Part shown: one piece after another, positions 47,960-51,960 of the stretch
How positions within the stretch are numbered: position 1 is the stretch's first letter
How the letters are laid out: each line of letters opens with the position of its first letter
Source: Verrucomicrobium spinosum DSM 4136 = JCM 18804
GTDB lineage: Bacteria; Verrucomicrobiota; Verrucomicrobiia; Verrucomicrobiales; Verrucomicrobiaceae
Direction of reading: 5' to 3'
DNA length: 64,000 bases
NCBI RefSeq assembly: GCF_000172155.1
Contig: NZ_ABIZ01000001.1
Coordinates: 4,559,105 to 4,623,104, forward strand
Made by a program: the position numbers and the translations under genes
Notes under the pieces: generated by a model
Seen by the model: only the letters and a program-made list of their open reading frames with translations
What the model was told of the DNA's origin: nothing
Databases searched by the model: none

Positions 47960-49108
47960 CTACAGCGCGTTTTCTATTCCACTCCAGAACTCATCTTCCC
48001 CAATTTCAAATGCCGATATGCTGCCTTTCAGAATCGAATACGATAGCTCCTCGATACCCTCCGGAAGCCGGAGCTTTTCCGATGTCAACCTCGGAAATTC
48101 TCTTACCCTGTTAAGAACACCGCCAGAAACGGCATAATATGTCCAATCTCCCATAACCCTGAATTGGGTTTTTGCTTGGGGCTGCAAGCTCCGAGCATCG
48201 GATCTAATGCCAAGCATTCGCAACCTGTCTTCGTATTCTGCTGTAGCATGGCGTTCGCTCTTCATATCCTCCTTAATCTCCTCTATAAGGTCACAGAGCC
48301 TGACAATCTTCTCGCCCGCACTCTGCTCTAGCGAATCACCTTCGTCCAGCTCGGGAAAACCGCGGAATGCCAAGAAGAGAACTCCTCCTGCAAAATCCAG
48401 CTGTTGAAGACTCGATATGCGGATCTTTGTTGGATTTTTCGCGGCACTCGACTTCACTTCAACACGTACCTGCCCGAAATCGAAGTCTTGGGCAGCGCCC
48501 AACGGCCCCTTCCACACTCTCATCAATGCTGCCCATGATGTTCCAAGAGACCTCTTGCGACACTCCTTCATGAACTTCAGCTCCGCAACTAGCCCAACGG
48601 CAGCCGCTCTGGACAACGGTTCTGCATCTATCCCTGCACAGAATTTGAGGTTCCCATACAGTCGTTGCCATTCAACAACCGCAAGCTCCACACTAGCGTC
48701 GGTCATTTCGATCGCCCTTCCGACAATGCGAATAAAAACGGTCCAATCGCTCTTATCACTTTGTCTAATAACAAGACACCGTTTCACGGTTACGCTCGCC
48801 GTGTCAAACTCGTCTTGAATGAACATGGACAAGAGCCCATTTTTCCTAGTTCGCCTCCAGACTGACCGATCTACACCTCCCTTGATCACACAATAGCAAG
48901 TGAATGTCTGCAATTTGTGGTTGAATCCGCAGTGAAGGATGCAACTTCGGCTCCGCACCTGTGACAACTCCGTATAGTCCTGAGGATTTACCGGCCTCTT
49001 GGTGGCGATCTGCTTCTCCCGTATTTGCTCCAACCGCCGTTCAACCTCTTCACGCGTGACAGGTTGCGTCTCCCCCACTTTGTCAAAAGCAGTTTTCATC
49101 TCAATCAT
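47960..49108 (-). CDS. PD-(D/E)XK motif protein, DUF4420 type
   Basis: 382 residues. The core GLVAELKFMKECRKRSLGTS, WKGPLGAAQDFDFGQVRVEV (continuing with KSS) and ISSLQQLDFAGGVLFL is characteristic of DUF4420, whose D-(x)n-E-x-K residues form a nuclease site. Related proteins occur in defence loci with Z1 or ATPase partners; here neither is seen. Upstream ATG at 49162 would overlap the broken EEP gene, so ATG 49108 (MIEMKTAFDKVGE), four bases after that gene's stop, is preferred. The following unknown gene starts one base after the stop. Confidence 0.78.
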   Translation of the reverse strand: MIEMKTAFDKVGETQPVTREEVERRLEQIREKQIATKRPVNPQDYTELSQVRSRSCILHCGFNHKLQTFTCYCVIKGGVDRSVWRRTRKNGLLSMFIQDEFDTASVTVKRCLVIRQSDKSDWTVFIRIVGRAIEMTDASVELAVVEWQRLYGNLKFCAGIDAEPLSRAAAVGLVAELKFMKECRKRSLGTSWAALMRVWKGPLGAAQDFDFGQVRVEVKSSAAKNPTKIRISSLQQLDFAGGVLFLAFRGFPELDEGDSLEQSAGEKIVRLCDLIEEIKEDMKSERHATAEYEDRLRMLGIRSDARSLQPQAKTQFRVMGDWTYYAVSGGVLNRVREFPRLTSEKLRLPEGIEELSYSILKGSISAFEIGEDEFWSGIENAL

Positions 49109-49112
49109 TGAT

Positions 49113-50183
49113 CTATCTCTGTTGGTGCATGGGAAGCACCACAACCACCGGAAAATGATCACTCCCAGGTGTGTCTTTCAAAACTGAAGTGACGGGTCTT
49201 CCAAGATCTCGGGTGTAGATGTGATCGAAGCAGGCGTCTGGGTATCGACCGCCCCCAGGAATGGTGATCCTGTCCTTCAGCGGCACCCCTTCGAATGTCC
49301 AGAAGAACCCCTGTTCTGTCAGCGGGCACTAATATCCGGCCACCGATGGGCACATTGAGTGTACCACCCAATTTGGCGCAAGTGAACATTACCCTTTTAA
49401 ACCCATCTCACAACTCGTTGACAGAGAAGTGTTTAAAAGGGTAATGTTCAAATGGCCAGCGCGAGTTATGTAGATTTGCCTGGCCGGTCTATTCCGCCCA
49501 TCGGTGGCCGGTTTTGAAGTGCCCGGTGACACCTGTTCTTCCAACTTCAACAAAGTGCGGTCCCCCGCCAAGTTGACCTGCTCCTTTGAAGTGTTGAAGT
49601 CGCCGACTACCACAATCGGTTCACCCGCTTTGCATTGGTCTTTAATGTGCCCTAGAAGCTGCTCTACGGCGTCTTCCCTCTTGGATGTGTTCTTGATCGG
49701 ATCCCCCAGGTTGCTCTTCAGATGGAGCCCGTAGACGTGAAGAGGACGACCTTCCACGATCAGCTTCGCATACGCATATCCTCGCGGCGCGTTGGCCCAT
49801 CCTCTCTTCCAAGATTCAGCCCACGCACCATCAGCAGCAAATCGGGACATGATCGCAATTTGTTGAAGACCGACTGCACCACCCACCTCGTCTTTGAACC
49901 GGCTCACGACATGAACTTGGAAACCTGGCATTAGCTTTGCCAACTTCTCAGCCGAGTCTTGATCCCGAACCTCCTGCAGAACCAGAACATCGGCTCGAAA
50001 CTGTGGCATGACGGCCGCAACCTCTAGAAAGTGCCGATCCTTCTCATCTTGGGTAGCGTTGGGCCTCTCACCAGGAAACCACTTCAGATTCCAAGTGACC
50101 AGCCTGACCACCTCTGAGGCATAGCCAGGTGTGGAAATGGCCACAAGCAGCCCGAGGAAGATCAACCGCCACATATTTTGCAT
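49113..50183 (-). pseudogene. Secreted endonuclease/exonuclease/phosphatase protein, broken by an insertion
   Basis: The N-terminal part (signal MWRLIFLGLLVAISTPGYA; LVTWNLKWFPG, VLVLQEVRDQ, HVYGLHLKSN, VVVGDFNTSKE) is an EEP nuclease. The frame then runs into a 215-bp element (49317-49531) and stops. The rest of the domain continues after the element in another frame: GFFWTFEGVPLKDR, RYPDACFDHIYTRDLG and GSDHFPVVVVL, up to TAG at 49115-49113. Removing the element and one copy of the 7-bp duplication joins KLEEQ to GFFWTFEG in frame. The intact protein would have about 285 residues and lie in the periplasm. Confidence 0.85.
49317..49531. mobile_element. 215-bp non-autonomous element (MITE-like) with 35-bp terminal inverted repeats
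   Basis: The outer ends 49317-49351 and 49496-49531 are inverted copies beginning TGTCA and CGGGCACT and ending CCGGCCACCGATGGGC, with only a few mismatches and one indel. The element is flanked by the direct repeat CCTGTTC at 49310-49316 and 49532-49538 (7 bp). In the middle a perfect 19-bp inverted repeat (49384-49402 and 49431-49449) forms a hairpin. No coding capacity. It interrupts the EEP nuclease gene. The TGTCA ends recall IS21-like elements, but that link is inferred. Confidence 0.85.
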
Positions 50184-50656
50184 GCAATACCGGCCGTTGG
50201 TCCACAAGAGCTACCGCGCCCATAGTAGCGACAATTTGAGTTGTGGCGTTTCCCAGTAGAACTGATGGTCCATCTTGAGGTGGATTGAGTCTCCACAGGA
50301 GAAGTCCCTGTTTCGGAACTGGAAGACAGCCGTTGCATTCCAGATGCCGATGTCGTGGCACTCGAGGTCGACGTAGCGGTCCCAGAGAATTGCGATGCCG
50401 GGTTGTCGGCAATGACTGGTGCCGGTTTGGGGTATTTGAGATTGAACTCGATCCTGTCGGCTTCTGACAACAAAGCAGGTGAAATCGAAATCACCCCACT
50501 TCCGTGGATCACCTTCAGTTGGCCATTGGCATCCCAGTTGATCGCGACAGCAGGAAACACCCTTCCATCAACAAGGTGCAGATCCTTAGCACCCAGACAG
50601 GTGCAGAATGCCAGCAGCATGAGCGAACCGAGGAGTGTATTCATGGATTTCAACAT
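50162..50656 (-). CDS. Secreted protein with Cys-rich RHNSxCRYYG C-terminal domain
   Basis: 164 residues. A signal peptide (MNTLLGSLMLLAFCTCLGA) is followed by a small beta domain (LHLVDGRVFPAVAINWDANG), a Ser/Thr linker, and a C-terminal domain of about 38 residues: RWTISSTGKRHNSNCRYYG, then GPTAGIACKICGG. The pattern of three Cys and one His suggests zinc binding. The same domain ends the gene at 51406. The end overlaps the EEP gene start by about 20 bases. Similar C-terminal domains occur after nucleases and in small secreted proteins of related bacteria. No enzyme motif is present. Confidence 0.75.
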   Translation of the reverse strand: MLKSMNTLLGSLMLLAFCTCLGAKDLHLVDGRVFPAVAINWDANGQLKVIHGSGVISISPALLSEADRIEFNLKYPKPAPVIADNPASQFSGTATSTSSATTSASGMQRLSSSSETGTSPVETQSTSRWTISSTGKRHNSNCRYYGRGSSCGPTAGIACKICGG

Positions 50657-51405: not shown

Positions 51406-51960
51406 TCAGCCACCGCAGATTTTACATGCAACGCCGTCACCTGGACCACATGAACGGCCTGATCCATAGTAGCGGCATCCCGAGTTGTGACGTTTCCCTG
51501 TAGAGCTGATGGTCCATCTCGATGCAGCTGGTGCCTCTGATGAAGAAGCTCCTGAGCCGGATCCGGGCGACAGGCTCCGTATTCCCGTTGCCGGCGAAGG
51601 GGTGTACGCAGGGGTCCTAGCAGGAGTGGAGACAGCAAGAGCACCTCTGCGAAGCTGTTCGTTCTCCTGCTGCAACTGGCTCACCTTGGCCTCCAGTTCC
51701 ACTATCCGCTGAAGAAGGGCCGCCGAATCAGGTTTACTGGTCTCTGAGAGCTTCGCCCTGGTATCTGCGGTTAGCTTTTGCAGATCCAGCCGGAGAACCC
51801 CAAAATCGCTCATCACGGTCACTTCAGAGGCCGTCACCGACATCACCCTTCCCTTGATCTTGCTTCCGTCGTTGAGGAGCAGATCCATAGTCTCCTGGCC
51901 AGCGAACCCCGGAAATGCCAGGAGAACTAAGACCAAGAGGTGGAACAGGTAGGGTTTCAT
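51406..51960 (-). CDS. Secreted coiled-coil protein with Cys-rich RHNSxCRYYG C-terminal domain
   Basis: 184 residues. Signal peptide (MKPYLFHLLVLVLLAFPGFA), a small beta domain similar to the start of the 50162 gene (LLLNDGSKIKGRVMSVTASE), a coiled coil (ALLQRIVELEAKVSQLQQEN), a Ser/Pro linker and the C-terminal domain RWTISSTGKRHNSGCRYYG with GPGDGVACKICGG. The last 37 residues are nearly identical to those of the 50162 protein, showing duplication or gene conversion. Function unknown; probably periplasmic or surface-attached. Confidence 0.78.
   Translation of the reverse strand: MKPYLFHLLVLVLLAFPGFAGQETMDLLLNDGSKIKGRVMSVTASEVTVMSDFGVLRLDLQKLTADTRAKLSETSKPDSAALLQRIVELEAKVSQLQQENEQLRRGALAVSTPARTPAYTPSPATGIRSLSPGSGSGASSSEAPAASRWTISSTGKRHNSGCRYYGSGRSCGPGDGVACKICGG

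Follow-up and report, generated by a model that had tools for sequence, protein, structure and literature searches.

A 215-bp non-coding element interrupts a nuclease gene of the EEP family in Verrucomicrobium spinosum DSM 4136, where it is bounded by an exact 7-bp target-site duplication. Judged by its ends, it belongs to a known kind of mobile DNA, the MITEs, and within that kind to the IS21 type. The explanation that best accounts for the observations jointly, and in which we have high confidence, is that a non-coding element with IS21 ends was moved by IstA and IstB acting in trans, very probably inactivated the nuclease, and is now probably an orphan. The element encodes no protein, and its left and right ends mimic those of IS21. 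The IstA transposase and its ATPase helper IstB, supplied from elsewhere, would bind both ends, and insertion into the EEP gene with a 7-bp staggered cut would give rise to the CCTGTTC duplication. The orphan element probably either arrived with its helper or has outlived it.

Within the window, a stretch of 64,000 nucleotides, the element occupies positions 49317–49531, with a left end that begins TGTCAGC at 49317 and a right end that begins TGTCACC on the minus strand at 49531, giving termini of the form TGTCA...TGACA. The two copies of CCTGTTC, read on the plus strand, lie at 49310–49316 and 49532–49538 and agree at 7/7 positions, so that the length, coordinates and perfect duplication proposed in the preliminary description are borne out. 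That description had also claimed near-identical inverted repeats of about 35 bases, and alignment of the left terminal repeat (49317–49351, plus strand, 35 nt) with the right one (49496–49531, minus strand, 36 nt) agrees with it: 32 of 37 aligned columns are identical, with 2 mismatches and 3 gap columns, and the alignment scores 46, whereas the best of 2000 dinucleotide shuffles reached 24. The repeats contain an exact 16-nt core, at 49336–49351 on the left and 49496–49511 on the right. The center of the element is a hairpin (49383–49450) with 27-nt arms at 49383–49409 and 49424–49450 that are 93% complementary; the hairpin had been noticed before, but as a perfect 19-bp structure, while the perfect outer pairs number 20. 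The predicted fold of the single strand was better than that of any of 200 shuffles, both as DNA of the plus strand (z = -10.05) and as RNA of the minus strand (z = -10.71). An RNA gene was considered and rejected: two Rfam miRNA-precursor matches scored far below the gathering thresholds (22.6 against 59 and 21.6 against 70; E-values 0.047 and 0.15) and were taken as chance matches to the palindrome. No promoters and no terminators were predicted between 49150 and 49700. All open reading frames of at least 60 amino acids that touch the element enter from, or exit into, the flanks. Neither istA nor istB is present in the element, and tblastn with the IstA and IstB of an IS21 element from another genome (locus L044, described below) found neither in the window; lacking both genes, the element is therefore not classed as an autonomous IS21-family insertion sequence.

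The interrupted gene lies on the minus strand. Its 5' part (49539–50207) comprises 223 codons, in an open frame from a TTG that is a candidate start, and matches the EEP-family profile PF03372; its 3' part (49113–49316), which carries an SDHFPV stretch, comprises 68 codons including the stop. With one copy of the duplication kept, the 223 and 68 codons fall in the same frame, as had been claimed. Read from 50207, the EEP frame enters the element after codon 223 and ends at 49389, and there are two stops in that frame inside the element. The PF03372 match extends to profile position 157 of 225 for the gene part alone, and to 173 of 225 for the open frame including the residues encoded by the element. 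The insertion thereby removes roughly the final 30% of the nuclease domain, and very probably inactivates the window copy. A paralog elsewhere in the genome (G000:C1:1214061-1214696) is uninterrupted and matches the profile from 1 to 225. With the element and one CCTGTTC omitted, the paralog and the window gene align over 760 bp at 89.9% identity without a gap, and with the element retained a matching gap is seen. The gapless alignment amounts to a natural empty site, and demonstrates that the 215 bp were inserted, with duplication of the target. The intact gene, which was to be looked for in relatives, exists in the same genome as this paralog (90% identical), and the homolog in genome G014, which is 71% identical, also has no element, in a match that reads through one TGA and in an alignment that is loose around the site. 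Matches to EEP homologs were found in 3 of 23 genomes, own genome included, and none was found in the congeners G001–G003, of which G002 is only 76% complete. The insertion may have been tolerated because the uninterrupted paralog remains elsewhere in the genome.

Examination of the EEP gene and its surroundings revealed several further features. Identity between the paralogs is a mosaic, at 92–100% over about 360 bp in the middle of the gene (window positions 49640–50000, approximately, compared with locus L104) and 78–90% on either side, and this pattern resembles the outcome of gene conversion. Two small proteins, encoded at 50162–50656 and 51406–51960, have in common, at their C-termini, the stretch SSTGKRHNS.CRYYG...CGP..GIACKICGG. 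The coding region of the first overlaps the EEP open frame at its start, and in G014 a similar stretch lies ahead of the EEP homolog. The gene behind the EEP gene (47960–49162) encodes a DUF4420 protein, a putative PD-(D/E)XK protein that matches the defense model MzaD at 1e-9, and PADLOC gave no match for the two genes after it.

By their sequence, the ends of the window element are of IS21 type. In a Verrucomicrobia MAG (Dive96_bin10.62, locus L044), both an IstA (NF033546, 267.5 bits, cut-off 160) and an IstB (NF038214, 255.7 bits, cut-off 200) are encoded between TGTCA-type ends such as these, and ends of the same kind lie behind istB at loci L098, L099 and L100. We ran tblastn on 12 loci that bear such ends and are not MITEs (L107 being counted with L106 as one place), and 7 had an IstB match in the flanks searched; at the remaining five (L109, L111, L101, L061 and L041) neither IstA nor IstB was found in flanks that extended no more than about 1.5 kb to either side, and much less at L041 on its inner side. 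The panel of ends that we compared consisted of both copies from the V. spinosum genome, the element of the relative palsa_1400 discussed below, L044, L098, L099, L100, L042 and G001; it did not include L101, L061, L041, L109–L111, L106 or L108. All four istB-side IS21 ends examined, two of which (L099 and L100) come from one genome, had a 20-nt repeat with a 25-bp period, and a 20-nt outer repeat is also present at the right end of both MITEs. The only left, istA-side, IS21 end seen had a 19-nt outer repeat and a 24-bp period, as did the left end of the palsa_1400 MITE, and the outer left repeat of the window element is likewise 19 nt long. In the window element the outer right repeat R1, GGGCACTTCAAAACCGGCCA (49505–49524, minus strand), is identical to the repeat at the istB-side end of L044, and the outer left repeat L1 (49324–49342, plus strand) has one base fewer than R1, a difference also seen at the istA-side end of L044.

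The inner repeats are less well kept. The inner right repeat R2 (49481–49499, minus strand) has the IS21 spacing of 25 bp to R1, but is worn and weak, with a score of 12 out of 20 that 15 of 300 shuffles reached. At the expected position of L2 (49348–49366, plus strand) the score of 10 was reached by 93 of 300 shuffles, which is chance level. In the portions of PMC10122671 that we consulted, IS21-type ends are described as having two tandem repeats each, L1/L2 and R1/R2, and the IstA studied there is reported to need two complete direct repeats in vitro. The worn state of R2 and L2 counts against the IS21 reading. IS21 target duplications are 4–8 bp long. For IS21 elements of Paracoccus, a table in the part of PMC3281130 consulted lists duplications of 7 and 8 bp, and a length of 5 bp appears in that of PMC10122671. 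No target duplication was seen around L044, our reference IS21, and we found no autonomous element with exactly the ends of the window element.

The genome of V. spinosum (8,220,857 bp, in one contig) contains two copies of the element in total, a low number. The second copy, whose presence answers the earlier suggestion that further copies be sought, lies at G000:C1:5523634-5524017 on the minus strand and is 384 bp long because its left hairpin arm is split by another element, of 164 bp, together with the 5-bp duplication ATTAC that this insert made. Outside this nested insert, copy 2 is identical to the window copy at 213 of 215 bases, and it is flanked by a near-duplication, ATGCATT/ATGCATG, that agrees at 6 of 7 positions. 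Copy 2 adjoins a transposase gene of the IS1182 family (NF033551, 416 bits; L006:1591-3162), and MITEs attributed to IS1182 helpers have been described (PMC11578231, consulted in part), observations which would fit a MITE of another DDE family, such as IS1182, whose resemblance to IS21 at the ends is merely superficial. We regard this as improbable, since the end sequence recurs in other genomes beside istB, and around istA and istB together in L044, while the near-duplication separates copy 2 from the IS1182-side sequence and no IS1182 gene adjoins the copy in the window.

The nested insert is itself a MITE-like element, unrelated to the 215-bp one. It lies within the hairpin of copy 2 (G000:C1:5523769-5523949; L006 3279–3442), has the ends CCTAAAAAGG..CCTTTTTAGG, and has a 22-nt inverted repeat of 91% identity. 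It has four matches in the V. spinosum genome (three full-length at 164 bp and one partial) and one in the congener G003 (163 bp), and its four full copies have exact 5-bp duplications: ATTAC, ATTAC, CTTAA and ATTTG.

Outside V. spinosum, the 215-bp element and its ends are sparsely distributed. In the congener G001 a contig breaks off after 64 bases of a right end, and its initial 63 bases are all identical to those of the window copy (63/63); its flanking sequence, compared by eye, is unlike that of either V. spinosum copy, indicating a different site, and this end may represent a third copy, outside the V. spinosum genome. As the dnaA regions of the two genomes are 90.7% identical, the perfectly conserved end looks younger than their split, or else was shared sideways. 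BLAST with the element found matches in 5 of 189 genomes, own genome included; one of these, in G021 (query positions 166–196), was judged a chance match as the stretch has no TGTCA end. The right-end pattern was found in 5 of 189 genomes with up to three mismatches and in 4 of 387 with up to two, own genome counted in both, and three stretches in the GTDB contig collection had an exact match. Matches with two or three mismatches were close to the level of reversed controls (118+120 against 104+121, and 94+100 against 84+74), and for this reason only exact end matches were pursued. The exact sequence TGTCANCGGGCACT occurs seven times in the V. spinosum genome: four occurrences are the ends of the two copies, two are solo ends, and one, at 7600089, has no repeat after it. 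The plasmid and phage collections had no match to the element, and the viral contigs no exact match to the right end. The recent transposition claimed in the preliminary description is supported by the near-identity of the two copies, the perfect duplication and the end in the congener, and the two outcomes that it had named as arguing the other way, a lack of other copies and the same arrangement in all relatives, did not occur.

The genome that houses a MITE usually, though not universally, also contains an autonomous element with the same ends, and this is not the case in V. spinosum, where the suggested search for a transposase with TGTCA-type ends found none. The IstA C-terminal domain (PF22483) had no match in any of six genomes, namely V. 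spinosum, three congeners and two others of the family, while 3 of 14 control genomes matched. The IstB profile PF01695 had two matches in the V. spinosum genome, DnaA and a 285-aa AAA+ protein. The latter scored 28.6 bits against PF01695 (cut-off 24.1) but 24.0 against NF038214 (cut-off 200), and over 162 aa it shares 24% identity with the L044 IstB. PF01695 is not specific, since 23 of 23 genomes and 13 of 14 controls had a match to it; inspection of single matches covered the two of V. spinosum. With the L044 IstA as query there was no match in 23 genomes, a search that had no positive control and was superseded by those with family profiles. From the lack of an IstA-domain match and of a convincing IstB in the V. 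spinosum genome, we infer that the element is probably an orphan. The earlier reading of a non-autonomous element stands, and the evidence supports naming IS21 as its helper family.

Two duplicated blocks in the V. spinosum genome, 97–98% identical, each carry a solo IS21-like left end (L042:2947 and L042:5356, corresponding to G000:C1:4065946 and 4068355), 170–280 bp upstream of Y1 (RAYT-like) transposase genes. These ends were located with the repeat of L042 itself; the two differ from the istA-side repeat of L044 at 1 and 2 of 19 bases, and no right end was found near them within 9 kb. The solo ends suggest that an IS21 probably once lived in this genome. That both Y1 gene copies have an IS21-like left end upstream, and that the 215-bp element contains a strong central hairpin, could be taken to mean that a RAYT/Y1 transposase spread the element, which would be a palindromic relic or a repeat of REP type flanked by a 7-bp repeat through coincidence. 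Target duplications are not known from RAYT/REP spread, whereas the duplication in the window is exact, the paralog reveals a clean insertion, and duplications matching at 6/7 and 7/7 positions flank copy 2 and the palsa_1400 element, which are the other complete copies; we consider such an origin scarcely credible, and retain movement by IstA and IstB as the explanation.

A diverged 215-bp element with both ends and a perfect 7-bp duplication, TCTGAAA, is present in Verrucomicrobiales bacterium palsa_1400 (L058:4634-4848). It has the same length as the window element, the same ends, an equally perfect 7-bp duplication and a hairpin in the same position, with arms at element positions 66–94 and 108–136, compared with 67–93 and 108–134 in the window. 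At its two ends, 29 of 36 and 34 of 36 positions agree with the window element. It differs in its interior, where only 55 of 143 positions are identical in an ungapped comparison (mean 36.7 in 5000 mononucleotide shuffles, p = 0.0014), in its intact inner repeats, with scores of 17 and 17 out of 20, and in the presence of IS21-like ends and istB matches in the same MAG. That MAG contains six further matches to the element, all to end regions, at five places, and an IstB match lies near three of these (L106, L108 and L110). At all three, IS21-like right ends lie about 0.8–1.3 kb from the istB match and not directly behind it, and at L106 the two are separated by an open frame of 310 aa, a possible passenger gene.

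In the pairing register of the window hairpin, 17 pairs are kept in both elements, and 6 of these are changed on both sides. Each element pairs best in a register of its own, one base apart from the other's, with 25 of 29 pairs in each case, compared with 19 and 14 in the register of the other; because the best registers are one base apart, two sequences do not prove covariation. One may speculate that MITEs of IS21 type are an old lineage among the Verrucomicrobia, that the position and size of their hairpin are kept while its sequence turns over, and that the hairpin aids the IstA tetramer, but we consider this combination unlikely. If it were true, a cruciform, or a spacer of set length, would help the IstA tetramer to join the ends of so short an element. 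A variant compatible with movement by IS21 proteins, somewhat easier to entertain but still a minority view among us, is that the element arose in this lineage by internal deletion from one particular IS21, and is not a member of an old MITE lineage. The IS21-like part measures about 35 bp at each end, and the interior has no other match in the V. spinosum genome, the plasmids or the phages, and the solo left ends would be relics of the presence of an IS21, all of which is consistent with such a deletion; the palsa_1400 relative, of the same length and with its hairpin at the same place, argues instead for an older lineage.

The window thus preserves a clean, nearly textbook insertion together with its natural empty site. 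It links a MITE with the large IS21 family, and the fixed position of the hairpin in two diverged elements raises the question of whether IS21 substrates as short as these require a middle that can fold. In other respects it represents ordinary genome parasitism, and leaves the general view of genes and genomes unchanged. With IS21, as represented by L044 and the istB-side ends of L098–L100, the element shares TG..CA termini, the outer repeat of L044 or nearly so, the longer repeat form on the right and the shorter on the left, and a duplication whose length is among those recorded for the family. It differs from IS21 in size (L044 is 2531 bp long), in having neither istA nor istB, and in its worn inner repeats. 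No description of an IS21-derived MITE was found in the literature searched, much of it consulted in excerpt and ISfinder being outside its scope. Bacterial MITEs with other helpers are known: MITEPsy1 and MITEPsy2 (PMC3189936), MITEPsy3 (PMC6053426) and MITEPye1 (PMC11578231) are described in the parts of these sources that we consulted, where the helpers to which they are attributed across the three papers are ISPsy2, the Tn3-family ISPsy30, ISPsy25 and IS1182, and MITEPsy2 is suggested to occur in a genome without its transposase (PMC3189936). As far as those parts describe them, these MITEs resemble the window element in being short, in having no transposase, in carrying the terminal inverted repeats of a helper element, and, for some, in being low in copy number and located in genes, and they differ from it in having helpers other than IS21.
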